53,278 nt of DNA from a bacterium (lineage in GTDB: Bacteria > BMS3Abin14), in NCBI GenBank assembly GCA_029210965.1, contig JARGFZ010000017.1, forward strand, positions 1 to 53,278, given 5' to 3'. The notes beneath the pieces were generated by a model. It had not been told where the DNA came from, did no database searches, and was given only the letters and a program-made list of their open reading frames with translations. Made by a program: the position numbers and the translations under genes. This document shows, one piece after another, positions 290 to 44,516 of the stretch. How positions within the stretch are numbered: the stretch's first letter is position 1; every line of letters starts with the position of its first letter.

Positions 290-697
290 TTAATCTCCAA
301 ATTTGTTATAAATCCTGAGAGTTGTACACGCCTCAATGAAATCAAAGTCCGCATCCTTGTGAAGCAGCATCAACCCGTTTTCAATACAGACCGCGGCGAT
401 AATACAGTCCACCGTTTTCCTGACTGTTTTTCCTTTTTTCCTGCAATCCCGGTAGAGTTGAGCTGCCATGATATATGTTTCGATACCTCGCGGCACGTAT
501 ATCGGAAACTCGAGAAGATAATCTTTGGCGCTCTTAAAATCCCTGTCGTTCTTTATCCCCTGAAGAATTTCCGTGAGGATGATATCTGTAATGGAGATAT
601 CCGCATCTTCTTTTATGAGGTTGTGTAATATCCGGCGATGAGGTGAATTAGCGCCCTTGAGGAAATCCACCCACACACTGGTGTCCACAAGTATCAT
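290..697 (-). CDS. vapC: VapC-type PIN-domain RNase toxin
   Basis: A 135-residue PIN-domain protein, the usual VapC length. VapC toxins are Mg-dependent endoribonucleases that cleave initiator tRNA, other tRNAs or 23S rRNA. The acidic residues expected of the active site are present: D5 in the N-terminal MILVDTSVWVDF motif, E43 in LTEILQG, D97 in TVDCIIAA and D115 or D117 in KDADFDF. The start codon overlaps the stop of the antitoxin gene by 4 bases (ATGA), so the two are translationally coupled. The pair is assigned with good confidence from order, sizes and motifs; the target RNA cannot be told. Confidence 0.9.
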   Translation of the reverse strand: MILVDTSVWVDFLKGANSPHRRILHNLIKEDADISITDIILTEILQGIKNDRDFKSAKDYLLEFPIYVPRGIETYIMAAQLYRDCRKKGKTVRKTVDCIIAAVCIENGLMLLHKDADFDFIEACTTLRIYNKFGD

Positions 698-894
698 GAC
701 CTGCTTTTTCTCATTTCACTAAGGCTACCCGTCCATTCTACCTTGCCTTCGAGCTCGAGAATTTTTTTCCTCTTCAAACCACTTACGAGTTCCTGGAGGG
801 CGTAATTTACAAGCTCCTTTTTGGTCTTTTTGTCGGTAAGCTGCATGGCCTCATCGACCAGCTTTTCGTCAAGTTCGATATTTGTCCTTAACAT
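694..894 (-). CDS. vapB: VapB-type antitoxin
   Basis: A 66-residue protein starting MLRTNIELDEKLVDEAM, the ribbon-helix-helix N-terminus typical of antitoxins of the VapB (DUF2191-like) kind, followed by a basic, charged C-terminus that would wrap the toxin. The first ATG after the AGGACGT ribosome-binding stretch was used; a 7-residue N-terminal extension is possible but lacks family support. It lies directly upstream of vapC. Antitoxins of this type bind their own promoter, and a palindrome suitable for that lies about 100 bases upstream at 992-1021. Confidence 0.88.
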   Translation of the reverse strand: MLRTNIELDEKLVDEAMQLTDKKTKKELVNYALQELVSGLKRKKILELEGKVEWTGSLSEMRKSRS

Positions 895-932
895 ACGTCC
901 TATCCCCCTTTCCACTTAACTTATTGGATTTT

Positions 933-7592: not shown

Positions 7593-8666
7593 TTACCATA
7601 CTTCCCTCACTACTATATCGCAGGTGGCCGAGGTCGTGCCCTCCTTAAGGGTCACGGGCCGTGGACCTTTTTCGTCCCATGCTCCCATAAACTCACCGGG
7701 TTCCACCGGTCCCCCGAACCTGGTGCGCGCGCCGATATAATACTCCCCCGGCTGTGAGATGGAGACGTTGTATCTCCCGTCCTCCCCGGTGGGAGCTGAA
7801 ATTGATACCGGCTTTCCAACCATCCTGCGGTCATCGTAAAGAAAAACATAGGCACCTGCCATGGGAGAGCGGTCCTCGCCCACCACCAGTCCCGTAACTA
7901 AAAAATCTCCCTGCACATTGGCCCACTGCTTTTCCTCCCACATGCGCGGGTCTACTGAGCGAAGCTGGATCTGCCCCATTTCCACAGGTGCGTTCCCCAC
8001 CTGAATGGGGTTGGACCGATAATCCCCCACCAGATCCCCGATGCTCACCGTACCCATACCGTCACTGCCCATACCGTTACCGCCAATACCATCACCAGAT
8101 GCCTCGAAGCGAACCGTTACCGTGTAGGCCCCCGGCGCGAGACCGGCTGTAAATCGACCATTTTCTCCAGCCCTCGCACGGCCCAGATACCCTGGTCCCC
8201 GCCTGGTGCCATCGGGGTAGAAATAGACGTAGGCGCCGGCCAGGGGCCCCTCGGGTCCGTGAACAGATCCAGACACCGGGATATCACCGGCCATACCCGC
8301 CCCTACACCCATATCTCTGAGCTGGATAGGGGAAACTTGAAGCACATCCCGGCCCACTTCAAGAGGACTTTTCCCGGTGGAACCAAACAGCATCCCCCCC
8401 GACCCGGGACCTTCCGGCCGTTTCCTGGCGGTCACCCGGTAGGAACCCGGCGGGAGGGAAAGGTTGAACCGGCCGTCCGAACCGGTGTTCGTGGATCCGA
8501 CAGCATCGGAATTGGGCTTACGTGTGTCGAAAAGCTCCACATATACGCCGGGTACGATCTCACCGCGATACTCAACCGCTCCTTCCACACCGCCCCCTGC
8601 CCCGAAGGTCAGACCGGGAAAAAAGAGGGTCAAAAACATAAAAAACAGCAAAGGACGTATAGTCAT
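7593..8666 (-). CDS. Carboxypeptidase-regulatory-like domain protein (paralogue C)
   Basis: A 357-residue exported protein beginning MTIRPLLFFMFLTLFFPGLTFG, a clear signal peptide; the longer reading frame upstream was rejected because it runs back through the hairpin and the micro-ORF. Three regulatory-like domains follow (VEGAVEYRGEIVPGVYVEL, VSGSVHGPEGPLAGAYVYF, VTGLVVGEDRSPMAGAYVFL). The family motifs GDLVGDYRSNPIQV and EPGEFMGAWD are present, and the C-terminus DIVVREVW matches DIVVKEVW of paralogue D. No ribosome binding site is next to the start; a GGGAGG sequence sits 23 bases upstream in the 5' arm of a hairpin, so its translation may depend on the micro-ORF before it. Confidence 0.78.
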   Translation of the reverse strand: MTIRPLLFFMFLTLFFPGLTFGAGGGVEGAVEYRGEIVPGVYVELFDTRKPNSDAVGSTNTGSDGRFNLSLPPGSYRVTARKRPEGPGSGGMLFGSTGKSPLEVGRDVLQVSPIQLRDMGVGAGMAGDIPVSGSVHGPEGPLAGAYVYFYPDGTRRGPGYLGRARAGENGRFTAGLAPGAYTVTVRFEASGDGIGGNGMGSDGMGTVSIGDLVGDYRSNPIQVGNAPVEMGQIQLRSVDPRMWEEKQWANVQGDFLVTGLVVGEDRSPMAGAYVFLYDDRRMVGKPVSISAPTGEDGRYNVSISQPGEYYIGARTRFGGPVEPGEFMGAWDEKGPRPVTLKEGTTSATCDIVVREVW

Positions 8667-8675
8667 TTTGAATAA

Positions 8676-8697
8676 GGCGGGAGGTCGCCCTCCCGCC
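8676..8697 (-). terminator. Hairpin between micro-ORF 1 and paralogue C
   Basis: Minus-strand GGCGGGAGG, loop GCGA (a GNRA tetraloop), CCTCCCGCC: a 9-bp perfect stem starting 4 bases after the stop codon of the micro-ORF and followed by TTATTC, then the next ATG 9 bases on. It could be a weak terminator, but the poor U-tract and the GGGAGG/CCTCCC pairing also fit a translational switch in which the ribosome ending the micro-ORF opens the stem. Confidence 0.55.
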
Positions 8698-8701
8698 TCC
8701 C

Positions 8702-8764
8702 TCAGCACGGGTGTACGCTGCTGCTGCCCACCAGTGTGGGCCTGATGTAACGCATTTTCTTCAC
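8702..8764 (-). CDS. Micro-ORF 1, 20-residue peptide ending VGSSSVHPC
   Basis: GTG-started ORF encoding (V/M)KKMRYIRPTLVGSSSVHPC then TGA. A near-perfect ribosome binding site, AAAGGAGGT, lies 7 bases before the GTG, and the GTG overlaps the TGA of the upstream membrane-protein gene, so it is translationally coupled. A second ORF at 36128-36187 encodes a peptide with the same last nine residues using different codons at almost every position, which is strong evidence that the peptide is real. There is no signal peptide or membrane segment. The Y-x-x-P-x-L start resembles leader motifs read by RRE domains in lasso-peptide and other RiPP systems, but no maturase is in this window. Function unknown. 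Confidence 0.8.
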   Translation of the reverse strand: MKKMRYIRPTLVGSSSVHPC

Positions 8765-11178
8765 AGGTCGACCTCCTTTCGTGCAGCCTCCCCCTCCCGG
8801 CCCAGAGACCGGATAAGAGGAAAGGTAAGGGCATAACACAGGACGCCCAGGACCAACGCCCTGGAGTAGCCAAAGTTCATGGCCATGACAATGGATCCGA
8901 GGGAACCTGCCACCGAAGCGGCCCCGTTCACAGCCCATGCCCACGGAACGAATGATCTACCGTTCCGGGAAAGGTAGGACAGGCCTACGGGAAGGAATAT
9001 CCCCATCACGAATCCGGGGGGCACCATTATCAGAACCGAGATCAGCACCCTCAAACCGGTTGAAAGGTTTAAGGATGGCGACAGGGCGCCCGACAACATC
9101 CATATACCTGGAATGAGCAAGAACAGTGCCACCTGTAATCGGGTCAGCATGGTCTCTACGTGGGTACCCTTTTTCCCCGCCCAGAAGCTGCCTGCGGCCG
9201 AAGATAGCAGAAGAGCGGCCAGAACAACCGTGAGGGAATAGGTGGGGTTTCCAAGAAAAAGCGCCAGCCGGTGCATCATGACAAGTTCCACGATAATGTA
9301 GCCCAGCCCTATGCCGGCAAAGTAGATGGAGGCCCTCCACACAGGCAGTTCATGTTGTTTACGGGCCCCTTTTCCTTGTAAAAAAGGGAGCAGCAGGAGG
9401 GCCAGAAGAGGCAGCGCCAGGAGCAGCGCCATGGTCCGAAGCACGACAATGTGCCTCTCACCTCTTTCCGTTGGCTTGAAAAAGACGTTGAAAAACCTTG
9501 ACTTGGGGACGTTGTTGTAGAAAAACGGCCTGTCGTCGGTAGGGGGCGAAAGATCGAAGCGCCCGGCGGTGATATCAATACCCCTTACCACATCACCGAA
9601 ACGTCCCTCAGTCACCATGCCGGGCAGGTACTCGATGGTAAATCCGCGTTCCAAGGTCAATCGATGAAGCTCTTTAATATCGAAGGAAGTGAAACCGCGG
9701 CGACTCACAAGGACCGTGGCCAGCCCACGTTCCCTGATCACAGCGATGGATTCTTCCGGGTTAACTGCGCCCTGGTCTATCAACAGGTCCCTGGCAAGGG
9801 ACACCAGGCGAAGGGCCCGGAGACCGAAAACCGACCGTGTAAGTGACAAAATCCCGTCATCTGTAAGGTGATCCCAGTACTCTTTAAAAGCCTCACTGGT
9901 ATAGAGGAAGTTGGCGCTCAGGCTGAAAGCGCCCGCAGAGGGGCTGATCTCCCCGAAAACAGAAGAGGCCTGGATGACATCAAATCGCTTTCCAAGCCGC
10001 GCCAACTCGGATCGTCCCTCTCCAATGATAACCTTCACCCCTGGCAAAGAGTAAGGCCCTCCGGAATATTGACGGAAGGTCTCATCAGCGGCCTGAACGA
10101 TTAGGGGGTTAAGTTCAATGGCCGTGACCTGACTGGCTCGGGTGCCGAGGATCGCGAGAATGTCTCTACCGCCGCCAGGACCAATAATGAGGGTGTCGGC
10201 CCCGGGCCTGAGGTGCGGGCCAAGAGAAATAATGTGCCACGGAGCCCATTCAGGAGATGGATCCCCATCACGGTTTTCAATAATGGGTGTGTATCCGGCA
10301 TCGTCCACCAGCATTCCCATGTTGCCCGGCTGGGCCCCCGTGTACCGGCGGCTGATCCCCCAGGACTGTTCAGCCTCCCAGCGGCTGAGAGGATAGACGA
10401 CCACCCTGGAAAGGGCGTTCCAGGCTGAATAACGGATGTCAGGTTCGTACTGGCCCCTGGCATACTGAAGCCGGACCAGCCGGTCACCGGGACCGTTGTA
10501 TAGAGCCAGGGCGGCCGTCACCAGGACCAGGGCCACCGCTATGTACCTCCCGGTTTTTTTTGACAGGATGGCCACCGCACCAAAGGCCCCCACACCTGCA
10601 ATGAGCAATAGTGAAGGTGCCCCCAGCACCTGCAGTCCGGGTACGAAGATCACACAACCCGCAGCTGCCCCCGCAAGGTCCGCCGCGTAAATGGCTCCTA
10701 TCCGGCGGTCGCCAAGCCGCAGAAAAAGTCCTGCCAGGACGATCCCGGCAGCGGTGAAAGGCACTGTGATGACCGTGTACAGTACAACCATGGAAAGAAC
10801 GGCCGCCATATCGGGACCCGGAGGCACCTGGCGAAATGGCTGAAAATAAGGCTGATGGAAAAAACTCAGGAGCGGAAACAGGATGTCCGGTTTAAGACGT
10901 GCAATTCCCAGAATGAGGAAGGGCACCGCCGCCGAAACGCCGAACAGGGTCGTCCACGGGATCAGGCCGGACGGAAAATCCCGCTCCGGCACCAGAGAGG
11001 GCCTCAGGTGTACCAGTACACCCCCCAGCGCGAACCCCAGGAGAGCCGCGGCGATGGACAGGGAGGCGAAATGGTACCACATGAGCACCGAGAACAACCT
11101 CGTGAGGGTCAGTTCATACAAAAGGACACCGAAGCTCAGGAGGAAAATGGCGGCGCCGAGGCGGCGATGAGGGTTCAC
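8761..11178 (-). CDS. Membrane spermidine-synthase-like (SpeE-like) protein
   Basis: An 805-residue protein: about seven hydrophobic segments in the first 240 residues, a Rossmann methyltransferase-type domain at roughly 300-540, then about six more membrane segments from 585 to the end. The SAM-type glycine loop LIIGPGGGRDIL and the following acidic position in TAIELNPL are visible. Where true aminopropyltransferases have catalytic aspartates, this one reads FDVIQASSVFGE, so spermidine synthesis is unlikely. The GTG start at 11178 was chosen because GGTGGGAG precedes it and because it gives a 4-base overlap (GTGA) with the upstream gene. Its stop overlaps micro-ORF 1. Membrane SpeE-like proteins are known in envelope clusters, with unproven reactions. 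Confidence 0.75.
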   Translation of the reverse strand: MNPHRRLGAAIFLLSFGVLLYELTLTRLFSVLMWYHFASLSIAAALLGFALGGVLVHLRPSLVPERDFPSGLIPWTTLFGVSAAVPFLILGIARLKPDILFPLLSFFHQPYFQPFRQVPPGPDMAAVLSMVVLYTVITVPFTAAGIVLAGLFLRLGDRRIGAIYAADLAGAAAGCVIFVPGLQVLGAPSLLLIAGVGAFGAVAILSKKTGRYIAVALVLVTAALALYNGPGDRLVRLQYARGQYEPDIRYSAWNALSRVVVYPLSRWEAEQSWGISRRYTGAQPGNMGMLVDDAGYTPIIENRDGDPSPEWAPWHIISLGPHLRPGADTLIIGPGGGRDILAILGTRASQVTAIELNPLIVQAADETFRQYSGGPYSLPGVKVIIGEGRSELARLGKRFDVIQASSVFGEISPSAGAFSLSANFLYTSEAFKEYWDHLTDDGILSLTRSVFGLRALRLVSLARDLLIDQGAVNPEESIAVIRERGLATVLVSRRGFTSFDIKELHRLTLERGFTIEYLPGMVTEGRFGDVVRGIDITAGRFDLSPPTDDRPFFYNNVPKSRFFNVFFKPTERGERHIVVLRTMALLLALPLLALLLLPFLQGKGARKQHELPVWRASIYFAGIGLGYIIVELVMMHRLALFLGNPTYSLTVVLAALLLSSAAGSFWAGKKGTHVETMLTRLQVALFLLIPGIWMLSGALSPSLNLSTGLRVLISVLIMVPPGFVMGIFLPVGLSYLSRNGRSFVPWAWAVNGAASVAGSLGSIVMAMNFGYSRALVLGVLCYALTFPLIRSLGREGEAARKEVDL

Positions 11179-13097
11179 TCGGGGATCTCCCACCGTATTT
11201 TCGACAAGGTCAGGCTAAAGGCACGCACAACACCATCCCTGGCACCATAAACAACAAGAGCGTCATTTTCTCTGCCAAAAAAAGCTATGCCGTGAACTGC
11301 TCCCCGAGATTCAAGAGTTCCCAGGAACCTTCCGGTACCGGTAAAGATACCGACTCCGTTGCTCTCAGTACCGGCCAGCATCAGACCATAGGCCGGTCCA
11401 CTGACGACGTGGACAGCGGAACCCATATCCAGGCTCCACATCAGAGCGCCGCTCCCTGTGAAGGAGGAAACAGTCCCGCTCCCGTCTCCCACCATTATCT
11501 GATCATGATGATGCCGCAGCACAACTGGAGCGCCATAGGTCCCCGACCCGGAGAGCTTTCGACGCCATGAGATCAGCCCCTCTTTCAGGCGGTAAAGAAC
11601 CCCGTCCCAGGTCACCGCAACCAAACCATCCTCGCCGATAAAGGCGGGTGCAGCCCTGACAGGACTACCCAGGTCAAGATGCTTGAGAACTTCTCCTTCG
11701 CGGCTCACCTTGAATAGGGAACCTGCGTCTGTACCGACCCACAGGAAATCCTGGGCCAGGGCTGCCGCCCCCCTGACAGGACCGTCCAGGGGAACGCTCC
11801 ACGTCCATTCCATTTTTGCTGTATCCAGCCCCCTGAAGTCGCCGTTCCATAGCCCCATATAGATCTGGCCCGTCCAGCTTCCCACAGGAGATGCCTGCCT
11901 GTGATCATCCACCATGGAAGGGGCCCATTCAACGGTAGTCAGGATCTCGCCTGAATCCATATCAACCGCCCGTACTGCTCTATCCCATGATGGAAAATAT
12001 AAAACACCATCAATGAATTCAGGTGTAGCATCGGTTACATCGGGTATGGAAACACGGGCAACTTCAGCCCCGGTTTCCGTTTCCAGAACCAGCAACCCCT
12101 CCTCCCAGCTGAGCACAGCGATCTTCTCATGATCGGGTTCCTTAAAAACAGGTGCCGCATCAATGAAGGATCCGACACGTTTCCTCCATATCTCCTTTGC
12201 ACTGTGTTGCCAAACCATGGGACCCGGTGTCCATTGGGACCAGGGAAAGCCTTCAATGGCCTTCCCAGGATCGATCTCACCCTGAAACCCTTCGACCTGG
12301 AGAGAAACGCCATCCTCCCTCCGGTTCCCCATCGTTGCCGGCGGTTCTCCTTCGTAGAAGTCGCCGAACCTGATATCCGATCTCTCATTTCCCTCAAACA
12401 GGTTAAACCCGATATTCGAGCCTCCTGCATTTTCGAAAAGGAAAATCCCGTGACCATTATTTTCAATCCGGTTATCCGCGATGTTTATCCTGGAGTCTCT
12501 CAGGTTTATCCCCTTACCTTCATTCCCCCGGATCAGGTTAAAAATAAACTCAAAGCTGCTGTTGCCGAAGCGTGTCCCGTCTATATTGTCCCGAAAAACC
12601 GAATTCATGACATATCCTGAGCTGAAATGAACATGCAGGCCGTATCGGGAATGCTCCAGGATGCAGTATTCCAGGACACTGCCCTCGCTGTGATCCATTC
12701 TCAGCTCAAGCCAGTCTCCCGGTTCCGGCTGTGACGCTGCGCTGGAAAAGTATATGGGCGCGTCCGGATCACCCCGGGCAATAAGCACCCCTTCGATGAT
12801 CAGTCGTGAATCGTTGACGCCGTCCCCATCGGGATCAAAGGGCTCGAAGAGGAAACGGGTACCGGGCTTGACCGTCAAGGTGGCTTTGGGAAAGACTTTT
12901 ACCTCACCCTTCACCCGGATGGTACCGGAGACAGTTGTGTCCTGATGGATCTCGGGGGGAATGGTGTTAATAGACATGCCCTGCTGCTTCACCTGAAGGC
13001 TGGAACAGGCAAAAAGCAGAAGGAATAGGGCCACAAAGCAGGAGCCAGTACCCGGGAGCCGGTACTCAGTAATATTCTTTAAGATCTCAAATCTCAT
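11175..13097 (-). CDS. Lipoprotein: beta-helix fused to a PQQ-like beta-propeller
   Basis: A 640-residue protein. Residues 20-32 hold a lipoprotein signal (FLLLFACSS). Residues about 45-270 are a right-handed beta-helix paralogous to the protein at 2815-3675, with the DPDGDGVNDSRL insert and repeated GNxxxxN rungs. From about 310 to the end come repeated strands of an outer-membrane BamB/PQQ-like propeller (AVLSWEEGLLVLETETGAE, FIDGVLYFPSWDRAVRAVD, LWVGTDAGSLFKVS, GDGSGTVSSFTGSG). The joining of the two folds in one chain is unusual. The ATG lies in an ATCTCAN tract, and an internal GTG near residue 22 could be the true start. Confidence 0.75.
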   Translation of the reverse strand: MRFEILKNITEYRLPGTGSCFVALFLLLFACSSLQVKQQGMSINTIPPEIHQDTTVSGTIRVKGEVKVFPKATLTVKPGTRFLFEPFDPDGDGVNDSRLIIEGVLIARGDPDAPIYFSSAASQPEPGDWLELRMDHSEGSVLEYCILEHSRYGLHVHFSSGYVMNSVFRDNIDGTRFGNSSFEFIFNLIRGNEGKGINLRDSRINIADNRIENNGHGIFLFENAGGSNIGFNLFEGNERSDIRFGDFYEGEPPATMGNRREDGVSLQVEGFQGEIDPGKAIEGFPWSQWTPGPMVWQHSAKEIWRKRVGSFIDAAPVFKEPDHEKIAVLSWEEGLLVLETETGAEVARVSIPDVTDATPEFIDGVLYFPSWDRAVRAVDMDSGEILTTVEWAPSMVDDHRQASPVGSWTGQIYMGLWNGDFRGLDTAKMEWTWSVPLDGPVRGAAALAQDFLWVGTDAGSLFKVSREGEVLKHLDLGSPVRAAPAFIGEDGLVAVTWDGVLYRLKEGLISWRRKLSGSGTYGAPVVLRHHHDQIMVGDGSGTVSSFTGSGALMWSLDMGSAVHVVSGPAYGLMLAGTESNGVGIFTGTGRFLGTLESRGAVHGIAFFGRENDALVVYGARDGVVRAFSLTLSKIRWEIPE

Positions 13098-16421: not shown

Positions 16422-17375
16422 TCAGGTCACCAGCCTGAAAATCAGCCCTGTAGCAACTGCACCGGTAAGGCACAACCCCAGGTACAGATAGAACAGTCTG
16501 CGTTCGAACACTTTCCAGAGCACCAGGAGCGCCGGAATGCTGGTCACCGGCCCGGCTACCAGAAATGTAGCGGCCGCCCCCGGATCCATCCCCAGATCCA
16601 GCAACCCCCTTGTGATGGGTACTATCGGTATCTGGTGAGCGGGCAGCGGCGCTCCCAGGATCGCTGCCCACAGGAGCGAGGTCACACCCGAACCACCCGC
16701 GATGGATTTTATGGCATCCACCGGTACCGCAAGCTCCAGAACAACCTGCAGGGCAACCGCCAGAAGAAGGAACTTGCCGACGAACCACGATGTATCCCGG
16801 GCCCGCTCCAGAAAAAACAGTACCTTGCTGTCCCTCTGCTTCACAACCATGGTGGGAACCGTGATGTCGTTGGCACACGCTATATCGTAGGCGGAGGCCA
16901 GGGACCCGTCTTCCTCGAAAACAGGCTTGATCCTGACAATATCCTTTGAAAAATTACTACGTTTTTCAAGGATATATGTTACGCCACCCACCAGGAAACC
17001 CATGCCCACGGCACTGACGATCTTGGTCCACGCCAGAGCGGGCCCCAGGCCTGCCCAGGTGATCGTCAACGCATCGGGACTCATGAGGGGAGATGTGGCG
17101 AGAAGGGCCAGCAGTGGGGGGAGAGGAACACCTGACAGGGCCAGGGGAATGACGATGGGCAGGACGCCGCAGGCACACAGGGGGCTGAAAACCCCCAGGA
17201 AAACAGCCAGGGGAATGGTAGCGGCCCCTGAATCCCTCATGTAGGCCCGAAGCTTAAGATCCCATTTGAATGTCTTGATAGTGGCGGCAAGGCCTACCCC
17301 AAGGATAAAGGCTGGAAGGAGCTGATAAAGCTCCCTTCCGTACATCCCGATCGCTTCAAGGATCAACCTGTTCAA
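16422..17375 (-). CDS. ArsP/DUF318-family membrane permease
   Basis: A 317-residue integral membrane protein with about eight hydrophobic segments. The SPLCACGVLPIVIPLALSG stretch near residue 65 matches the CxCG motif of the permease family (DUF318) that includes ArsP, which exports organoarsenicals; other members are linked to heavy metals. A second family-like segment, GAPLPAHQIPIVPITRGL, lies near residue 240. The start is a TTG two bases after the stop of the FmdE-like gene; an ATG ten codons later is possible. Its place behind the FmdE-like and AAA-like genes suggests that the three handle one metal or small molecule. Substrate unknown. Confidence 0.8.
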   Translation of the reverse strand: MNRLILEAIGMYGRELYQLLPAFILGVGLAATIKTFKWDLKLRAYMRDSGAATIPLAVFLGVFSPLCACGVLPIVIPLALSGVPLPPLLALLATSPLMSPDALTITWAGLGPALAWTKIVSAVGMGFLVGGVTYILEKRSNFSKDIVRIKPVFEEDGSLASAYDIACANDITVPTMVVKQRDSKVLFFLERARDTSWFVGKFLLLAVALQVVLELAVPVDAIKSIAGGSGVTSLLWAAILGAPLPAHQIPIVPITRGLLDLGMDPGAAATFLVAGPVTSIPALLVLWKVFERRLFYLYLGLCLTGAVATGLIFRLVT

Positions 17376-17377
17376 GA

Positions 17378-17839
17378 TCAGTTCCCGGGAAACCCGCTGA
17401 TGGTGCCCATATCCACTACGGCCTCTGTCTCAAGGATCTCCTCATCGGGCGCCGATGTGAACATTTCCATCAGGGCAGACCTGCTCTCGGGTGTTTTTTC
17501 TTTCCGTATCTGCTCCAGAAGCTGCGGCCTCGGTAAGACCATGACACCCTCCCGGGCCCCTTCCACAGTAAGGATGAAAGAAAAGTTCCGGCCCCTCAGC
17601 AGGACCAGGTTCTGGTTCCCCCAGGTGCATCCGGTAAAGATCTGGATGCCGTCGATGGCGCATCCGTATCCCCTGTAATAACCGTAGAGGTGGAGGGCAT
17701 CACCCGGGATTGCGACCAGCTGCCGGGCCGTTTTCGCTGTCCTGGCGCCCAGGAGGACCATGGGGCACAGGTGCCCGTGGACCTGTTCGATAAGAGCCAG
17801 GTCGGTCTCAGAAAGCGTAGTGGTGAGGGCAGTCGTCAC
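17378..17839 (-). CDS. FmdE-like protein
   Basis: A 153-residue cytoplasmic protein with the FmdE-type motifs HGHLCPMVLLGARTAKTA at about residues 22-39 and GYGCAIDGIQIFTGCTWGN at about 60-78. These supply His and Cys residues that bind metal in the family named after formylmethanofuran dehydrogenase subunit E. Many bacterial members occur without that enzyme. The GTG start at 17839 follows GGGAG at a 7-base spacing and overlaps the AAA-like gene by 32 bases; an extended frame upstream is only that overlap. The metal and partner are unknown. Confidence 0.82.
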   Translation of the reverse strand: MTTALTTTLSETDLALIEQVHGHLCPMVLLGARTAKTARQLVAIPGDALHLYGYYRGYGCAIDGIQIFTGCTWGNQNLVLLRGRNFSFILTVEGAREGVMVLPRPQLLEQIRKEKTPESRSALMEMFTSAPDEEILETEAVVDMGTISGFPGN

Positions 17840-18689
17840 GGTAGATCTCCCAGTATTTCTCATACATATCGGGCGAGATCCAGGGCTCCACCTGCCCGGC
17901 CGCCACAACGAAATCATCCATTTCAACCTTGTCCGAATCCCGTTGTACAGCGTTCAAAACGGCTCTTTTACATAGGTTTTCTATGTCCCAACCAACGAAA
18001 CCTTCCGTGATCTCAGCCAGTCGGGTAATGTCCACCTCCCCGCCAAGGGTCGGGATCCTCTCTATGTAGATCTTCAGCATCGCCTCCCTGTCTTTTCCGG
18101 TGGTGGGGGCTACGAATATCTTTCGATTAAAGCGGCTTTTCTCTTTGATAATGGCCTGATCAACCGCATCCACCCGGTAGGCTGAACCAACCAGCATAAT
18201 ATCATCCCGGTCATGGATACCATCGATCTCCCGTATGAACACCTCCGTGAGCGCCTTGTCCGCAAAAGTGGGTGGTTTACCCCTGAAATTACCCGGGCCC
18301 CACTCATAATCCGCACCGGCCCTTGGCGCCAGCCACTCCGTATCGGAAATGTAAAGGACGCAGGGAGCCTCGTGTTTGGCGTCATGGAAGGCCTGCTGAA
18401 GCTCGTCGGGCTTGCCGAGCATCTCCTGCCCTGAGACATATACATAGGAAACTCCTGCCTCCGTGGCGGCAGCTTCGGCCAGCATGGTGATACCTACACC
18501 CAACGGCCCCCAAATGAGTACACCAGACGGGAGGGTAAGGTGGTGTTTGGCCAGCTGTTCCTTTTTCTTCAAGGGAAGGCTCACCATCTCTTTGACATGC
18601 TGCTTGGGTCCCTCCAGGCCTCCGATATCGTCCCAGGTCATGGTGGGATCCTTGACTTCATAGTAGATGCGGTTGAGTTTACGATGCAA
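17808..18689 (-). CDS. Degenerate AAA-family (CDC48-like) pseudo-ATPase
   Basis: A 293-residue single AAA module. The fold is clear: WDDIGGLEGPKQHVKEMVSLPL at about 19-40, a sensor-like GSAYRVDAVDQAI, and a C-terminal helical domain ITEGFVGWDIENLCKRAV. But the Walker A motif reads GPLGVGIT (residues 61-68, lysine replaced by isoleucine), and Walker B reads VLYISDTEW (the DE pair is gone). An arginine in EKSRFNRK remains at the arginine-finger position. It therefore probably neither binds nor hydrolyses ATP normally and may act as a scaffold or regulator. It overlaps the FmdE-like gene by 32 bases. Confidence 0.8.
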   Translation of the reverse strand: MHRKLNRIYYEVKDPTMTWDDIGGLEGPKQHVKEMVSLPLKKKEQLAKHHLTLPSGVLIWGPLGVGITMLAEAAATEAGVSYVYVSGQEMLGKPDELQQAFHDAKHEAPCVLYISDTEWLAPRAGADYEWGPGNFRGKPPTFADKALTEVFIREIDGIHDRDDIMLVGSAYRVDAVDQAIIKEKSRFNRKIFVAPTTGKDREAMLKIYIERIPTLGGEVDITRLAEITEGFVGWDIENLCKRAVLNAVQRDSDKVEMDDFVVAAGQVEPWISPDMYEKYWEIYRDDCPHHYAF

Positions 18690-18914: not shown

Positions 18915-19706
18915 TCAGGCTTTTCTGTCGTAAATGAATCTATCCACACAATCCGGCAATTCCAACTCGTCAATCTTCACATCGACCCGCTCGAGGATGG
19001 CCCTTCCTCTCAGGAGGAGAGGCCCCTTGAGCGCAGGACTGGTCATCACGATATCCTTATGGGCAGTACAGGTGCGTCCGCAGTCCTTTATGGGGTTCCA
19101 AACTCCTTTATCCTCTTTATAGAGCCAGGAACATGCCCCTGACACCGCAATCAGGCGCGTGTCCCGGTGAAAGGAAAACAGGAACCCGTCCATATCCGGC
19201 AGCGGCAGCCAGTGCCTGGGGGGATCCAGTTCAATACGATCGACCCCTTTGACCTTGAGAAAGGCAAGAAACGGACTATCGTACAGAGGTCCCCAGGCAA
19301 AATACCGTCTTGTGGGAAGATCGGATTCATCCCGGGAGTCGAAGACTCCAGGTCCCCTTCGAAACCTCATCAGCAATCGGCCTGCAGTGATCCCAACCCC
19401 CTCCATGCCCCCCGCCTCATCGCCAAGCTCATTAAGGACTCCCCAGTCGTTGACCACCACCTCGCCCCATCCATGGGAAACCGCAGTGGTAACGGCATTC
19501 AGCACATCGGCAACCTCGTCCGGCCCCGCGACGGGGGTCACCAGGCTTAAGGCGGCAGGATCCATTTGTCGGGACAGGTGCCGAACTTTCCCGGCAGAGG
19601 GAACCAGCTGCGGGCAAAACTCAGACCCGATCCTGATACCATCGAACCCTTCCGGCAGCGAATCCCTTTCCCGGCCCTCAAGGTAGCTTGACCTGATCCC
19701 AGTCAT
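18915..19706 (-). CDS. UbiV-like U32-family protein
   Basis: A 263-residue protein resembling UbiV. It has the expected cysteine layout for a 4Fe-4S cluster: one Cys early in GSEFCPQLVPS, then TRLIAVSGACSWLYKED...DCGRTC with C-x16-C-x3-C, aligning with the UbiV segment that reads LAYSARC...CETCC. UbiV works with UbiU in oxygen-independent hydroxylation of ubiquinone precursors, with prephenate as oxygen donor in E. coli. The start overlaps the stop of the UbiU-like gene as TGATG; an in-frame ATG two codons further upstream is also possible. Whether the product here is a quinone is not shown. Confidence 0.72.
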   Translation of the reverse strand: MTGIRSSYLEGRERDSLPEGFDGIRIGSEFCPQLVPSAGKVRHLSRQMDPAALSLVTPVAGPDEVADVLNAVTTAVSHGWGEVVVNDWGVLNELGDEAGGMEGVGITAGRLLMRFRRGPGVFDSRDESDLPTRRYFAWGPLYDSPFLAFLKVKGVDRIELDPPRHWLPLPDMDGFLFSFHRDTRLIAVSGACSWLYKEDKGVWNPIKDCGRTCTAHKDIVMTSPALKGPLLLRGRAILERVDVKIDELELPDCVDRFIYDRKA

Positions 19707-20707
19707 CAACATCCTGGTCCCTGCCCACATGGGTCAACGTCAGGGTAGTAGCAGTTATGCTCGCAGCAACGGCGGCCGTACAGCCTTTGGTAACTCTCCC
19801 TGCATGCTCTGAACCAGGCCTCATTGGGGTGGGCAGGCACCTCTTTCAGAAGTCGGCCTAGCTGTCCCACAAGCTGAAGTTTGCGCTGCAAGGGAGCCCC
19901 TCTACCAACAACCTTGAAGGTGGAAACACCAGCGGCCTTCAGTGCCGGGAGGGCGCACAAACCGCAGCCGTCCCGCCTGTCGCTTTTCCTGATCCCGGAA
20001 AAGTGGCCCGAGATGTTTAGCGGCGGGCGATCCCCGGCTTCATCAGCCAGGTCCCATTCCCATTCGCAAGGCCATCGCCTGTCCGGGCTGTCGTGGAGGA
20101 AGGTGCAGATCCCTTCGATATTAGGGCACTTGCCCACAAGGATAAAAGCCTCGTACTCCACCGAAGGCATGGCCCCTGTCAGGGCAGAGATCTGTTCAAG
20201 GTTCAGAAACCTGGGGAGGATGACTCTGGTGATCCCCTGGTCGACATAAAAACGCACGGAGTGGGCATTGGCGGCGATCCCCATGGTACTCAGATGCAGA
20301 GGGAGTTCGATCCCCTCATCTCCGAGACGGACAATAAGTCCCGGATCAGCTACGATGAGAGCCCCTATACCGGCATGGGCTGCCCAGCGGGCCAACTCAA
20401 CAACGAGGGGCATCTGCTCATCCATGTAAAACGGTGCGTTCAGGGTCAGGGCGAAGGCCCCGCCGTGCTCCCTGGTTTTAAGAACTGCATCCTCCAGTTG
20501 GGCCATGTCGGGGAACTGGGCACTTTCAAAGGTTCTCTGGTTGAGTAGGACCGTTGAGGGGAACCGATCTGCCCATTCGATGGGAAGAACGCCACCGTAC
20601 AGCCAGTGCGCGCCCGCCTCCATGAGGGGTGTTACCTCCTCGATGGCGTTCACGGGTGCGAGAATTTCTGGCTGCGTGTTGTCAGCACGACTGATCTCAG
20701 ATCTCAT
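19706..20707 (-). CDS. UbiU-like U32-family protein
   Basis: A 333-residue member of the U32 'peptidase' family. Signature: PEILAPVNAIEEV at the N-terminus and a cysteine cluster KCPNIEGIC (C-x6-C), then C twelve residues on in RRWPCEWEW, and GCGLCALPALKAAG followed by TFKVVGRGA, the layout that holds a 4Fe-4S cluster in UbiU. Extra cysteines (RRCCEHNCYYPDVDPC) sit at the C-terminus. The ATG lies in an ATCTCAN heptad tract; the first 13 residues are repeat-encoded. It forms a coupled pair with the UbiV-like gene. Roles in RNA hydroxylation (as in RlhA or TrhP) are alternatives to quinone synthesis. Confidence 0.78.
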   Translation of the reverse strand: MRSEISRADNTQPEILAPVNAIEEVTPLMEAGAHWLYGGVLPIEWADRFPSTVLLNQRTFESAQFPDMAQLEDAVLKTREHGGAFALTLNAPFYMDEQMPLVVELARWAAHAGIGALIVADPGLIVRLGDEGIELPLHLSTMGIAANAHSVRFYVDQGITRVILPRFLNLEQISALTGAMPSVEYEAFILVGKCPNIEGICTFLHDSPDRRWPCEWEWDLADEAGDRPPLNISGHFSGIRKSDRRDGCGLCALPALKAAGVSTFKVVGRGAPLQRKLQLVGQLGRLLKEVPAHPNEAWFRACRESYQRLYGRRCCEHNCYYPDVDPCGQGPGC

Positions 20708-20970: not shown

Positions 20971-21774
20971 TCACCGCGTCCCCGTGTCCCCGCGTCCGCC
21001 TTTCTTCTTGTTCCAGAATTTTTCCTTCCTCTTGTTCCAGAAGGTCGGATCTGATTTTGCTGTAAGCACATCACCCACGATGATGATGGCCAGGGACGGG
21101 TCACCGGAAACAAGTCCGAAAATATCATCCTCCCCCACCACCTCGGCCATGGTGGAAACGGTACACCGGTAAACCTTTTCACCTTCCATCCCCACACGGG
21201 ACAGGATGGCCGCAGGAGTCTCGGGTGCAAACCCTCCGGACAGCTCCTCAGCCAACTGCTCCAGCGGGCGGTTGTTCATGTAGAGAACCATTGTTCCGGC
21301 GGCCCTGGCAAGCCGGCCTAGATCCATGGCATCACCCGCTTTATCGATATGCTTGGGGCTGGTGAGAACAACGGAGTGACTGACACCCGGCATGTCCAGG
21401 GTCTGTTTGATGAGAGCAGCAGCAGCGTTTAAAGTCCCCACCCCGGCGATGACTTTCGATCTCTCGGCAAAATGCTCGACGATGGGCAGGAAGGGTGAAA
21501 AAACCGTAATGTCCCCCGGCACGAGAAAGCCCACCGGAGCGGATCGGGACGCCTCGTCAATCTCCTGGATAAGCTCCTCAAACACCCTTTCGAGGGGGTC
21601 TGACACAGTCATGCCTGAAAGCAGCCTGGCAAAGGTTTCCGGATAGGGGTCGACAGCATAAACGAGAGAACATCTGGCCAGGGCTTCACTCCCCTCCAGG
21701 GTGAGGTATTTCGCGTCACCCGGGCCTGCGCCGATGAAGTAGATGGGGTGGGGTTTTTTGTTATTTAGTGTCAT
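20971..21774 (-). CDS. SAM-dependent tetrapyrrole methylase family protein
   Basis: A 267-residue protein with the family's N-terminal motif IYFIGAGPGDAKYLTLEGSE, then PVGFLVPGDITVFSP and the later TMVLYMNNRPLEQL and GLVSGDPSLAIIIVGDV segments. It resembles the cobalamin-pathway methylases (CobM/CobI type) but no other corrin gene is present, so its substrate cannot be assigned. The last 12 or so residues (KKKGGRGDTGTR) are encoded by the octad repeat next to the gene, and FWNKRKEKFWNKKK just before is a small duplication, so the natural C-terminus may have been extended. Confidence 0.8.
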   Translation of the reverse strand: MTLNNKKPHPIYFIGAGPGDAKYLTLEGSEALARCSLVYAVDPYPETFARLLSGMTVSDPLERVFEELIQEIDEASRSAPVGFLVPGDITVFSPFLPIVEHFAERSKVIAGVGTLNAAAALIKQTLDMPGVSHSVVLTSPKHIDKAGDAMDLGRLARAAGTMVLYMNNRPLEQLAEELSGGFAPETPAAILSRVGMEGEKVYRCTVSTMAEVVGEDDIFGLVSGDPSLAIIIVGDVLTAKSDPTFWNKRKEKFWNKKKGGRGDTGTR

Positions 21775-36127: not shown

Positions 36128-36187
36128 TTAGCAAGGATGAACGGATGAAGATCCGACGACCTTCGGTGCGATATAGCGCTTTTTCAT
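36128..36187 (-). CDS. Micro-ORF 2, 19-residue peptide ending VGSSSVHPC
   Basis: ATG-started ORF encoding MKKRYIAPKVVGSSSVHPC then TAA, with CTGGAGGATTAAACC before it (GGAGG 8 bases from the ATG). Aligned with micro-ORF 1 it matches at KK, RYI, P and all of VGSSSVHPC, while seven of the eight GSSSVHPC codons differ synonymously, with all three serines TCN here and AGC there. It lies 154 bases after the Ig-like/lipoyl-like gene and is the last gene before the terminator, so it is probably cotranscribed with the cytochrome region. No signal peptide. The terminal Cys and the preceding His could bind metal or haem or be a modification site. Confidence 0.8.
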   Translation of the reverse strand: MKKRYIAPKVVGSSSVHPC

Positions 36188-36204
36188 GGTTTAATCCTCC
36201 AGGT

Positions 36205-36341: not shown

Positions 36342-38648
36342 TTATTCAGGTTGTTCAATAATGTACCCTAACGTATCGCCGTATTCTACCCTGTCGCGCT
36401 CTTCTGCTACAAAGGTGGAAACTGTTCCGTCCCTCGGAGCAACAACAGTATAAGAGTTATCGCTGCGGTCTTCAAGCACCACGAGATCCTGGCCTTCAAC
36501 AACCTCATCCCCTGCCTTGACCAACCACTCGATGACCTCCAGGCGCCCCGGGTCGTCCTCAAGTCCGTACAGGAATATGGCACCTTCAGCTGCCGAGAGC
36601 TCCTCGGCCGTCGGCTCGCGGGAAATGACCGTGCCGCGAACCGTGACCAGGCCGGGTTTATCGCCGGCGGTAAAGGTAACCGAGGCATTACCCTTTTCAT
36701 CGGTTGCTACGCTCGGAGAGCTTACGGTCCCTTCTCCCACAGAAATGTCGTACAGCACATCGACATTTCTGTTGGGGTTTTTATTGGTATCAGTTACTTT
36801 CGCCATTACGGTACTCTGTCCGCCGGTTACGACCTCGCCCGGGTCAGCCGCGAGCTCGATGACAGCCGGGGCGTCGGGGCGAAGCTCGATGGGGACGATG
36901 GCGACCATACCCGAGGTCAGGTCCCGCACCTCCACCTGTACCTGGCCCATGAGAGTACCCGCTATGTAGTCGGCATAGGCGCGGCCCCTGGAATCCGTCT
37001 TGCCCTGGACCTCACGGATGGAGCCGTTATCGCCCAGGAGCGTAAAGCGCACGTGGTGTCCGGACAAAGGTTTGCCCGAGGCGTCCTTCACGACAGCTGT
37101 GATCCGGCTGCGGCTCCGCCCGTCGGCGGTCAGCCAGTCCCGGGAGAGGGACACGTCCATGGACCCTGTCACCGAAAGGGCGCTTACCTTCGGTTCGGTG
37201 ACAACGATATCAACTGTCCCGTTGATGAAGGAACGCACCCAGCCCACACCCACGTCCCCGGAAACCATGTCCTTGGCGCTGACAAGTATGGTTTTGGCGG
37301 CAAAACCGCTTATATATTGAGCGGTTACCTCCCCGAAGGAATCGGTGACCCCGCCCCAGTCCACGTCGATGGTCCCGCCAACCTGGTCTTCAAAGGACCC
37401 GCCGCCCACCGTCCCGGTGTACTCGTCGGTGGTGGAGAGGGTCAGCTTCAATCCATGGTTGGGGACGGCTTTACCGTTGGCGTTAATAGCCTTGACGGTC
37501 AGACCTGCCCTGCTTGAGCGATCAGCCGGTATAAGGTCGTTGCTGGGCTGGACTGTTATCAGGGTCCGGCTGTCGATGGTAACCTTCCGGGCTGAGGGAA
37601 GGGGTTCAGCCGCATATCCGAACCGATTCGAAAACCGGCCTACAACCTGGGTCTCTTGCAGGAACAGGCCGGGCGGCACAGTAAAGGTGCCCGTGTAGCT
37701 ACCAGGAGCATCGGCATCTTCCACCATGGGTATACCGGTAAGTGATCCTCCGATGTCAAAAGAAGCCACACCACCTGGTTCGGCTCTTAGCCAGAACTTC
37801 AGAGCATCACCGGAAACCAGCTTCCCAGAGTATCCTACTACATCAAAGGCGTTGTGACCGACGGCCTCGATGGTCGGTCTTCTAGGGTCGACAACGTCAT
37901 TATAGACCTTCACGTCCCTGATGATCGACGTCATCATATTCCATGCCTGATCAGGACCACTCAGGGTCGATCCGAAAACCAGGAAAGCGGAGCGACCGAC
38001 CATATTCGGGATTGTTGAGACACCCTTTATCTCCGCGTTGAGTCTCTTACCATTGAGGAAAATGGAGTTTTCCGTCGGCGTCGGGCCCCAAGTGAACAGA
38101 AAATGTACTGTCTCACCCATCCCGATGTATGGAATGATAAGCCTGGTACTGAGAAGACCCTGGTAGGCTGGGAGGTCCCAGACTCGCTTCATCATCCAGA
38201 CGCTCTCGTCGTTTTGTGCCGTTGACACCTGTAATTCGGGTCTGTCCCCGTTCCAGTAGAAACTCACATCGAAAATCTGGTTGAAGGTTTCGTCAACGAA
38301 GGTGAAGATCGTTTCATCGTCCTTTTTGTTGGCCCTTTCGAGGAGGACCTCGATCGTGCCGCGTCTGAGGTCCAGGGAGGTGATATCGTAGGCAAAATAG
38401 TTGACGGCCCCGTTGTCCCTCGTATCCCCCCCAACAAAACTAGCCCATCCCCCATCACCAGCCAGCTGGATCGCAACGCCGCCTCGCACAAGGGTGGCCT
38501 GAGGTGTTCCTTCAAAGGATTCCGAGAGCACCTCAAGCGGGGCGGCGCAGATACTGTCGACAGACCAGATGGAAAACAGGGCAAGGAACGCCGCGGTTGT
38601 CATCGCCTGAGCAACCCGGAGGAAATATTTTATGGACGTCTTTTTCAT
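36342..38648 (-). CDS. Exported LamG/Ig-like protein with C-terminal lipoyl-like domain
   Basis: A 768-residue exported protein; the ATG at 38648 follows GAGGTCAAG and starts a signal peptide (MKKTSIKYFLRVAQAMTTA...). Parts in order: LamG/concanavalin-like domain at about 40-240 (GTIEVLLERANKKDDETIF, FTWGPTPTENSIFLNGKRL), a beta-sandwich, then three Big_1-type Ig-like domains (for example RITAVVKDASGKPLSGHHVRF, STVMAKVTDTNKNPNRNVDV), and at about 690-768 a biotinyl/lipoyl-like hammerhead: WLVKAGDEVVEGQDLVVLED...VVAPRDGTVS...DRVEYGDTLGYI. The lysine that would be lipoylated or biotinylated is absent (EDRSDNSYTV). A lipoyl-like domain on a secreted Ig-like protein is unusual. Confidence 0.8.
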   Translation of the reverse strand: MKKTSIKYFLRVAQAMTTAAFLALFSIWSVDSICAAPLEVLSESFEGTPQATLVRGGVAIQLAGDGGWASFVGGDTRDNGAVNYFAYDITSLDLRRGTIEVLLERANKKDDETIFTFVDETFNQIFDVSFYWNGDRPELQVSTAQNDESVWMMKRVWDLPAYQGLLSTRLIIPYIGMGETVHFLFTWGPTPTENSIFLNGKRLNAEIKGVSTIPNMVGRSAFLVFGSTLSGPDQAWNMMTSIIRDVKVYNDVVDPRRPTIEAVGHNAFDVVGYSGKLVSGDALKFWLRAEPGGVASFDIGGSLTGIPMVEDADAPGSYTGTFTVPPGLFLQETQVVGRFSNRFGYAAEPLPSARKVTIDSRTLITVQPSNDLIPADRSSRAGLTVKAINANGKAVPNHGLKLTLSTTDEYTGTVGGGSFEDQVGGTIDVDWGGVTDSFGEVTAQYISGFAAKTILVSAKDMVSGDVGVGWVRSFINGTVDIVVTEPKVSALSVTGSMDVSLSRDWLTADGRSRSRITAVVKDASGKPLSGHHVRFTLLGDNGSIREVQGKTDSRGRAYADYIAGTLMGQVQVEVRDLTSGMVAIVPIELRPDAPAVIELAADPGEVVTGGQSTVMAKVTDTNKNPNRNVDVLYDISVGEGTVSSPSVATDEKGNASVTFTAGDKPGLVTVRGTVISREPTAEELSAAEGAIFLYGLEDDPGRLEVIEWLVKAGDEVVEGQDLVVLEDRSDNSYTVVAPRDGTVSTFVAEERDRVEYGDTLGYIIEQPE

Positions 38649-38704
38649 CTTGACCTCTTCGGCACGCTCATGACAATTAATACGTATCGCCACCTAATTG
38701 GTTA

Positions 38705-41700
38705 CTACCAAGGAGTTACCCGGTTCCAACCCCCATCGCTGCCGGTTCCGGGTGTTCCATCGCTGTCCAGCCTGTGGCAGTTGACCGCGGAACTCCAGTC
38801 GGACATCTCCCGGTCAATGGTGACGCCCGTTTCGGCGGACCCCAGGTCGCTTGGCGGCCCAATCCTGGTGTCATCCCAGGTGTTGTGGCTCACATCCAGA
38901 CAGTTGGTGATCATGAGCCTCGGCAGCCTTGAGGCGTGGGGGTTGTGGCACTTGGAGCAGGGGAAGTTGTGATAGTTGTCCTGGGTCGTCGAACTATCCA
39001 CTGTCAGGTTCCAGGCATCTGCACCGAGCCCCTCTACCTTAGCTTGTCCCGTATCCACTAACGGTGGAACCGCGCCTGGTGCCACAGCGACCAGGGGGTA
39101 CCATGTTGGTTTATTACCCGCAGCCTGTCCCCTGATCCACAAACCCTCACCGGTGGACTGTTGGCCTTTCTCGTTCAGGTTCCCCACGATGGTGGAATCC
39201 CAGTTTCTGCCGGTTGTATTCAGGACAGGCACCGGACGACCACCAATCCCGTCTCCAAAGATATTCCTGGCACTGTATTCCGTTCCCGCCCCGGGAATGG
39301 AGCCCCCCTTGACAGCGTTGGCGTGGCCGTTGTAGCCGCTCACCCAATCCGAGCCTGCGCTGCCGAACTCATTGATGGAGTTGATCTCCGTATCGGCCCA
39401 ACTCCCATTGCCTCCCCCGTGGCAGTACTCGCATAGTCCTCCGAAATCATCAACTGTCCAAGAGGAAGTTGGGCTCCCGCTGTTCTGGTCAATCCAGTAG
39501 CCACCCTTGGTCGTAGAAGTATCGTGGACCGGGCGGGCCCTTGGAACATTGCCGAAATCCACGATCTCAACGAATTCGTTGCCGCTCTGGGGCGCACCGT
39601 CCTCGTTGAAGGGGTTGCCTCGCCAGCGGCCCCTCAGGTACGGCTCCCCGTCGGGATCCATAGTGGTCGTGATGACAGAACTCCTGTTCCGGGCCGTGTT
39701 GTGGACGTCGTGGCAGTAGGAGCAGCGGATGTTGGATACTGAGTCCGTTCCCGAGACACCCACTGAACTATCAGCTGAATGAGTGGACTGGACCGTGCTG
39801 TTCTTGTAGGAGAAGTTCGCGCTGGACCACAGCGCCCCCACCCAGTTGACCTGGTTCAGGGAACCGTAATCGAAGGTGATGGAACCGGTGACGACGCTGA
39901 CGTTCGTCCCCCACTCCGAAACATCACCGCTCCCCCACAATCCGTCGTTGTTCTGGTCGTGGCATCCCCAGCAGATCTGGGCCTCTGTGGTGCCTGCGGT
40001 CGCATCTCCACCCAGGACGAACCCATAATTGGTACCGTCAGGCTGGTGGGAATACGTCACTCCAACGGCCGGGTAGTTACGGATAACCACCACTCCCGTG
40101 TCACCGCTTTTAGAGTGTGTGCCTCCCTTCAGGTTACCCGGATGGCATGATTCACAGGCCTGAGGACTTCCCCCGGTCACGGTGGCAAGGTGGGAACTGT
40201 TCGTCCCGACGCCGGCAGACGGATTTGATGCTCCGTGGCAGCTGGTACAGCTCAAAGCAGGCCCTGTGACCGGGTTGACCGTCCAACCGGAATCCTCCAT
40301 GGCGATGGGAGTTCCACCGACATGGCAGTTGCTGGAGCAGTCCCAGTTGGTCTGGCTGTACCCCATGGCGTCGTTCATATCGATCTGATCGTTGCCGTGC
40401 CAGGTGTTGGCCCAGGCGGCGCTGTTGTAGGGAGAGTCGGCGTAAACGTGGCAGATGTTGCACGTGGTTCCGTCTGCAGCCGTGTCGGCATGGTTACCGA
40501 GGACCTCGGAACCACCCGTACCATTATAGTTGAAGTTGTGGGAAACGCTGCCGTCGCCAGTGTCGGCCGCGGCACCAAAGGTCCATGCCTGGCCCACAAA
40601 ACCGCCGTGGCAGTTGGCGCACTCGCTGCCGTCGCTGTTGGCCGCCGAGGTGTCCCACATGCGGGACCAGGATCCCACTTCACCCGGGCCGTCGTGGCAG
40701 CCGGTGGCGCCCACTTCATTCACCCCACCGGTGTTGGAACAGCTGCCGGGAGAGCCATCTGAATAATCGTCATAAAGGCCCCGGCTTTCGGTGTTCGCTG
40801 CCTGGTCGGCCTGCCAGGTACCGTTGATGTGGGTGGCCTGTCCCGCGGCGATAGTGGTGTGACATACCTCGCATCGGCTTGCGGGACTCAGGGCCTCGGC
40901 GTGCCTTATCCCCGAAACTGTCGGTGTGATGGTATGCAGACCGCTGGTCGGAGTGTAGATGCCCGCGATCCAGGACCCACTGTGACAGTTCAGGCAATCC
41001 AGATCCGTGGGCAAATCAAGCCAGTCGCCGTAGGAGGCCGGGACCACGTCGTGGCAGGCGTTGGCGCAATCCGGGGCCGTATAGCTGGTGAGGCTGTTGC
41101 CGTAGTTGGGCGTCCCGCTCCAGTGGGCCGTGTCGCCCAAGGGCGGGTTGTTCGCGTTGGCCCCGTGGCAGGAGGCGCAGTCGTTGGGCACGTAGGTGTT
41201 GCTGGCCACATGGGTTCCGTGCCGGCCGCTGCCCGGATGGGCGTTGACCAGGGTACCAGTATCGTTCCCGTTGTAGTGACACGTCGTACAGTCAGAAGTT
41301 CCACCTCCGTTAAACCAGGTGTCCGGGGTGGTCCGGTTGTAGTGACAATCCACTCCTGCACAGGTCTTGGAGGAGGCAATGGCAGCATCGGTATCGGTTG
41401 TAATGGGAGCACCGGCCGTGGTGTCCCACATGGGGTTCATATCGCCCACGTCGGCGGGAATGACGTTGTCCCAGTGGTCAGAACCACCCACGCCGTTGGC
41501 GTCGTTGTGGCAGTACTCGCACATGTGCCGCTGTTCGGCGTCGTTAGTCGTGTAGACGGCGGGGGTTGCGTCGTATGCGAGCTTCGCTTCGAGGGCGTCG
41601 ATGTGGGCCGCGTGGCTCCCCCTGCGGTCCGGGTAGTCGGTGGTCTGGACCGAGGCGATCTCCGGCCAGTACAGGCCGCTGACTCCATGACAACCGTCGC

Positions 41701-44347: not shown

Positions 44348-44516
44348 CTTATCGGGCTCCAAAGTTCAATTCATCGCTCATTAACGACTCCATTGTTATT
44401 ACGGCCTCTCTTAACTCAAAGTTACATAGAAACAAGGGCTTTTGCCCATTATTTTAAACTTTTAATTTTGCCATTTATGCCCATAGGGCTATTGACAGTA
44501 CTACTGAACCCCTGGT

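Follow-up and report, generated by a model that had tools for sequence, protein, structure and literature searches.

Why do two very short open reading frames in one stretch of bacterial DNA end in the same nine residues, spelled in largely different codons? Both frames lie on the minus strand of the window, by which we mean the whole stretch of 53,278 nucleotides that was analysed. Peptide gene 1 (8702-8764, minus strand) reads GTGAAGAAAATGCGTTACATCAGGCCCACACTGGTGGGCAGCAGCAGCGTACACCCGTGCTGA, that is V(M)KKMRYIRPTLVGSSSVHPC*; it starts with GTG, encodes (M)KKMRYIRPTLVGSSSVHPC up to the stop codon and is recovered from its own genome by the family HMM with an E-value of 5.9e-12. Peptide gene 2 (36128-36187, minus strand) starts with ATG and encodes MKKRYIAPKVVGSSSVHPC followed by a stop codon. 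An earlier note had drawn attention to the common VGSSSVHPC-stop, to synonymous divergence over GSSSVHPC and to strong ribosome sites in front of both frames. All three observations hold: the last nine residues are the same in both peptides, the GSSSVHPC codons differ at seven of eight positions with no residue altered, and the ribosome sites are AAAGGAGGT for peptide 1 (8771-8779, minus strand), located within the 3' end of the upstream gene at 8761-11193, and GGAGG for peptide 2 (36196-36200, minus strand). Both frames are thus real, but the count of two did not stand, as a search of the 157 contigs of the window's own genome (G000) revealed four copies, located at 8.7 and 36.1 kb of contig C17 and at 5.0 and 8.3 kb of contig C66. 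Another match in this genome, on contig C9 (L005, E 1.5), was dropped because its residues differ and no stop codon follows the Cys. Rfam and tRNA scans of the window gave no matches.

The peptides belong to a family of 105 distinct loci and 87 distinct peptides from three phyla. Nearly all members are 18-20 residues long, and nearly all are preceded by a Shine-Dalgarno sequence. The peptide was found in 7 of 12 genomes of the window's own phylum, and a scan of GTDB contigs detected it in metagenome-assembled genomes (MAGs) titled Deltaproteobacteria, Nitrospirae and Actinomycetota. When residues are numbered as codons counted back from the stop codon (-1), Tyr/Phe-16, Pro-13, Pro-3 and Cys-2 are present at all 105 loci, His-4 at 104, and Gly-9 and Val-5 at 100 each. 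Val-5 is encoded by GTG (47), GTT (22), GTC (17) and GTA (14), and all four proline codons are in use for Pro-13. Since the third positions of both codons use all four bases, selection acts on the peptide. Pooled over the loci, pN/pS amounts to 0.30 in the last eight codons (core) and to 0.43 in the eight before them (leader), both values being overestimated because changes between the AGC and TCN codons of serine inflate them. The earlier note had read the codon pattern as selection on the peptide; indeed, the C-terminal residues are fixed and the codons free throughout the family, and the motif does occur in relatives. Moreover, synonymous divergence of the same kind is repeated in another lineage, in genome G013, whose loci L019 and L020 encode the identical 20-residue peptide MKKVKYMKPKVVGSSSVHPC with diverged codons.

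The note had also been unable to name a family. There is indeed no NCBIfam model for the peptide, and searches of NCBIfam and Pfam with the peptides yielded nothing significant, the best result being one sub-threshold Pfam match (HIRA_B, E 0.089). The profile libraries probably missed the family because its members are only 18-20 residues long. A match from Gandjariella (L031) was rejected because it continues past the Cys (HPCD), lacks the KK-Y-P leader and comes from a genome without the GeoRSP genes that are described below. In two other genomes, G280 and G340 (loci L117-L130), arrays of 15 and 14 VHPC-type matches, respectively, were observed, in which the peptides alternate with exported repeat proteins and many end in ...VGSVCVHPC with a second Cys.

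While the earlier note named no function, the present analysis assigns the peptides to GeoRSP, a set of curated models comprising a radical SAM/SPASM maturase (GeoRSP_rSAM, TIGR04303), a PqqD-type chaperone (geo_PqqD, TIGR04302) and a SPASM accessory protein (GeoRSP_SPASM, TIGR04304). Among 623 genomes in two phylum samples, GeoRSP is present in 42, the peptide in 45 and both in 40. The Nitrospirota-type sample (n=326) contains the rSAM gene in 21 genomes, the peptide in 23 and both in 20 (Fisher p 8.8e-28), and the Desulfobacterota-type sample (n=297) contains them in 21, 22 and 20, respectively (Fisher p 7.9e-28); these p values ignore shared ancestry, and the phylum names of both samples are inferred. 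The rSAM call in 40 of the 45 peptide genomes was made at 1e-80 or better, in some cases slightly below the curated cut-off. Furthermore, ten of 12 genomes that were reached through the peptide alone carry GeoRSP above the cut-off, the remaining two being a MAG of 1.5 Mb and an evident false match. The association has exceptions in both directions: no GeoRSP was detected even at 1e-30 in five peptide-bearing genomes (G541, G588, G043, G081 and G102), and no peptide was detected in the GeoRSP-bearing genomes G316, G517, G005 and G010. Many of these genomes are MAGs, and assembly gaps may account for some of the exceptions.

The two genes are also physically linked. In 10 genomes from two phyla, the peptide gene is located about 30-130 nt downstream of a GeoRSP_rSAM gene on the same strand (loci L019, L021/L069, L030/L062, L165-L169, L171 and L173). 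The GeoRSP_rSAM proteins encoded before L019, L021 and L030 score 446-472 bits against an NCBIfam cut-off of 400, and at L030 the gene order is geo_PqqD, GeoRSP_rSAM, peptide. Downstream of the rSAM gene, the seven genomes with loci L165-L169, L171 and L173 encode, for example, MKTRYVKPRVTGQSSVHPC or MKKIPYVKPRIAGTSSVHPC. Within 24 of the 40 double-positive genomes, peptide and rSAM genes lie on one contig at a distance of at most 17 kb; genomes of the window's phylum have the two unlinked or about 20 kb apart. In both G012 and G013, one copy adjoins the rSAM gene and another lies in an envelope operon of the window type. These copies bridge the rSAM-adjacent peptides and the envelope-operon peptides, the two peptides of G013 being the identical pair mentioned above.

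The window's own genome encodes GeoRSP_rSAM on a contig other than that of the window (C7, 16917-17891; 407 bits versus a cut-off of 400). It lies side by side with the genes for geo_PqqD (97.2 bits versus a cut-off of 100, the best match and just below the curated cut-off) and GeoRSP_SPASM (E 5.6e-20, also the best match and below the curated cut-off), and the peptide genes are located in trans. The GeoRSP operon on contig C7 (L052, 5442-12304) also encodes seleno_YedE, which scores over its cut-off, a cysteine desulfurase family protein, a Se/S carrier and a PhnD-like binding protein, a content that possibly links GeoRSP to sulfur or selenium traffic. At another locus (L132 in G102), a peptide copy was seen near a gene that by eye resembles FdhD, the formate dehydrogenase sulfurtransferase, which is another hint of sulfur traffic.

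We consider it likely, with a probability of about 85%, that the micro-ORFs are precursors of ribosomally synthesised and post-translationally modified peptides (RiPPs) for the orphan GeoRSP system, which would modify them in trans. An alignment of 54 GeoRSP rSAMs revealed that all three radical-SAM cysteines are present in every sequence, as are five of the seven SPASM cysteines, the other two being found in 53 sequences and, for the seventh, in 52. This pattern fits a SAM cluster and two auxiliary clusters, as in PqqE. An eleventh Cys outside the SAM and SPASM motifs (NYKCSGM in L052) is invariant in all 54 sequences; it could act in catalysis or serve as a ligand. Matches of GeoRSP_rSAM to MftC (about 1e-52) and PqqE (6e-34) were obtained, and the nearest solved chain is PqqE 6c8v. 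Apart from GeoRSP itself, the curated families that come closest are AhbD, MftC and NirJ, and several of these act by removing carboxyl or propionate groups. The fold of RiPP recognition elements (RREs) has PqqD as its archetype. On the side of the peptides, the motif [Y/F]xxPx[V/I/L/M] is found in 105 of 105 members, as YIRPTL in peptide 1 (8732-8749, minus strand) and as YIAPKV in peptide 2 (36158-36175, minus strand). It has been shown that discrete RREs of lasso peptides bind the leader motif [Y/W]xxPx[L/V/I/F/A] (PMC13381572), and the motif of the family matches it. The N-terminal half of the peptide is probably the leader, with YIRPTL predicted to dock onto the PqqD-type chaperone, and modification is predicted at the invariant C-terminal VHPC. 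The predicted cores are GSSSVHPC of peptide 1 (8705-8728, minus strand), with V-H-P-C at the extreme C-terminus, and GSSSVHPC of peptide 2 (36131-36154, minus strand).

Accommodating these features, GeoRSP could act as follows. A precursor of 18-20 residues would be made from its own strong ribosome site, which is visible in the sequence. Its N-terminal KKxxYxxPxV would be held by geo_PqqD acting as an RRE, as the YxxPx[V/I/L] motif and the PqqD domain suggest, and the radical SAM enzyme with its two auxiliary Fe-S clusters would modify the core, most likely at His-Pro-Cys. A first guess at the chemistry, which we hold weakly, is that the terminal Cys undergoes oxidative decarboxylation or that Cys and His are crosslinked, because the closest characterised relatives are AhbD and NirJ (heme-propionate), MftC (mycofactocin) and PqqE. 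The gene counts suggest that a single GeoRSP set would serve several precursors whose genes lie far apart, as in the window. Conservation of the core across phyla, together with precursors that are dispersed but have not diversified, favours one fixed product, for example a conserved cofactor or carrier, over a diversifying antibiotic. Going by the company that the genes keep, the product may be used in the envelope alongside multiheme cytochromes and proteins of the NosD-like beta-helix and CarboxypepD_reg types, possibly for handling sulfur/selenium or metal. Neither a leader peptidase nor an exporter was identified, which counts against GeoRSP precursors. The C-terminal Cys also brought AviCys/thioamitide and PEARL-scaffold systems to mind, and no such gene was noticed near the peptide.

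The neighbours of the peptide genes (multiheme cytochromes, NosD-like and CarboxypepD_reg proteins, YedE and the Se/S carrier) suggest a function in envelope redox, sulfur/selenium or metal handling, the link to sulfur, selenium or metal being one of gene association only. Directly upstream of peptide 1 lies a gene for a membrane protein with a spermine/spermidine synthase domain (8761-11193, minus strand), and the neighbour comparison revealed that this pairing recurs in L017 and L058. The gene directly downstream encodes an exported protein in which the domain search detected CarboxypepD_reg domains (7593-8666, minus strand). Peptide 2 is preceded by a gene for a protein with Big_1 Ig-like domains and a C-terminal biotinyl/lipoyl-type domain (36342-38693, minus strand), relatives of which precede the peptide in L006, L018 and L020. 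The same-strand run also includes a gene for an MtrC/MtrF-like multiheme cytochrome c with cytochrome c7 matches (38705-44362, minus strand). At 40 of 69 loci, a close same-strand neighbour belongs to one large exported group of the NosD-type beta-helix/CarboxypepD_reg type, as defined by single-linkage BLAST; eight loci neighbour a multiheme protein with at least four CxxCH motifs, three neighbour the rSAM gene, and 58 have a neighbour with a signal-peptide signature according to a crude test. Geobacter-like GeoRSP clusters, a label inferred from high GeoRSP scores and gene content, add ResB, NicO, OpuAC, NosD and multiheme proteins.

The left half of the window (1161-23167) resembles GeoRSP-associated neighbourhoods elsewhere. 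It encodes an OpuAC-type binding protein (2090-2704), an ArsP_1 permease (16422-17375), FmdE (17378-17926), a U32 peptidase (19706-20707) and a TP_methylase (20971-21774), as well as three NosD/beta-helix proteins, several CarboxypepD_reg proteins and an AAA ATPase. Relatives of several of these genes lie near peptides or GeoRSP in other phyla. Two adjacent small ORFs at 290-915 (minus strand) have by eye the look of a VapBC-type toxin-antitoxin system (PIN-like MILVDTSVWVDFLKG).

A bolder proposal, which we put forward only tentatively and would not yet favour, is that GeoRSP converts the VHPC peptides into a new conserved peptide-derived thiol/imidazole cofactor or carrier of the envelope electron-transfer and sulfur/selenium/metal machinery in Geobacter-like bacteria, Nitrospirota and others. 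It would have the rank of PQQ or mycofactocin, and dedicated precursor copies would lie beside individual multiheme cytochrome, NosD-like and CarboxypepD_reg genes.

The main rival explanation is that of a regulatory leader peptide, because strong hairpins follow about half of the copies. The peptides would be cis-acting in arrest or attenuation, the ribosome stalling at ...VHPC-stop and the downstream hairpin controlling the adjacent envelope gene. Indeed, a G+C-rich hairpin (8674-8699, minus strand; 55-nt fold of -26.1 kcal/mol) lies between the stop codon of peptide 1 and the CarboxypepD_reg gene. The mean z-score of the post-stop fold is -2.4 for the family versus -0.35 for control stretches, and it is below -1.5 in 55% of the copies versus 16% of the controls. 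Moreover, nascent-chain arrest would be in keeping with residues that stay fixed right up to the stop while their codons vary freely, and the copies are close to genes for exported proteins. However, judged by fold z, a strong hairpin is absent after the second copy of the window and after both copies on C66, and hairpins following short, highly expressed precursor genes are usual in RiPP operons as well. The neighbouring genes vary widely and often lie upstream rather than downstream, leaving no common regulated gene, and regulation in cis predicts neither the co-occurrence with GeoRSP nor the direct adjacency to the rSAM gene. We regard it as improbable.

It is very improbable that the peptides act unmodified, for instance as a secreted signal or as a thiol/His metal ligand, and merely share a metal-respiring/sulfur-cycling lifestyle with GeoRSP. 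The fixed His and Cys could bind metal, and the envelope and multiheme protein neighbours as well as the five genomes with a peptide and no detected GeoRSP would be in keeping with such a role. Yet it leaves the rSAM adjacency in 10 genomes and the YxxPxV motif unexplained, and in the same phyla most genomes have neither of the two genes. Chance, or a non-coding segment that was recently duplicated, has only the short length in its favour and can be taken as refuted, because 12 Markov-shuffled windows contained no pair of short ORFs with a common C-terminus of at least six residues whereas the real window contains one of nine residues, and because codons have diverged with residues kept at 105 loci and homologues occur in three phyla.

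How do the putative GeoRSP precursors compare with known systems? TnaC is a regulatory leader peptide, and such peptides are alike in being encoded by a short ORF with residues conserved to the stop codon and, for many VHPC copies, a downstream hairpin; unlike them, the VHPC family has no common regulated gene and is tied to a maturase and an RRE-like motif. With 7-8 residues, the VHPC core is too short to form a lasso. Lasso peptides and LPP RiPPs have YxxP leaders, the lasso motif being [Y/W]xxPx[L/V/I/F/A] (PMC13381572) and that of the VHPC family [Y/F]xxPx[V/I/L/M]. However, the maturation genes seen at VHPC loci are those for rSAM/SPASM proteins and not for a lasso cyclase and a protease, neither a lasso cyclase nor a leader protease having been noticed in the lists of neighbouring genes. 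Closer parallels are mycofactocin (MftA/MftB/MftC) and PQQ (PqqA/PqqD/PqqE), both of which combine a short precursor, a PqqD-type RRE protein and an rSAM/SPASM maturase, with a core at or near the C-terminus that is conserved rather than diversified. In contrast to these systems, the VHPC family has many dispersed precursor genes with up to 15 matches per genome, and no link to a glycosyltransferase or nicotinoprotein was seen with VHPC peptides. The core of MftA is VY and that of PqqA is E-x3-Y, and the VHPC core differs from both. Because the maturase of the window's own genome stays below the curated cut-offs for MftC (TIGR03962; 177.7 versus 265 bits) and PqqE (TIGR02109; 117.5 versus 381 bits), the system falls outside both mycofactocin and PQQ. 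The known system with which the peptides probably belong is GeoRSP, since their genes adjoin or co-occur with exactly the proteins of TIGR04302, TIGR04303 and TIGR04304. A search confined to the open literature gave no relevant mention of GeoRSP, TIGR04303/TIGR04302 or the motif strings, and no named GeoRSP substrate peptide was found there or among the NCBIfam models. The peptide family is the new part, the GeoRSP enzymes being already known but substrate-less as far as found. Given the neighbours for extracellular electron transfer and sulfur/selenium handling, a new redox or sulfur/selenium cofactor is one possible product, and a curated maturase set without a substrate gains a specific and testable candidate.
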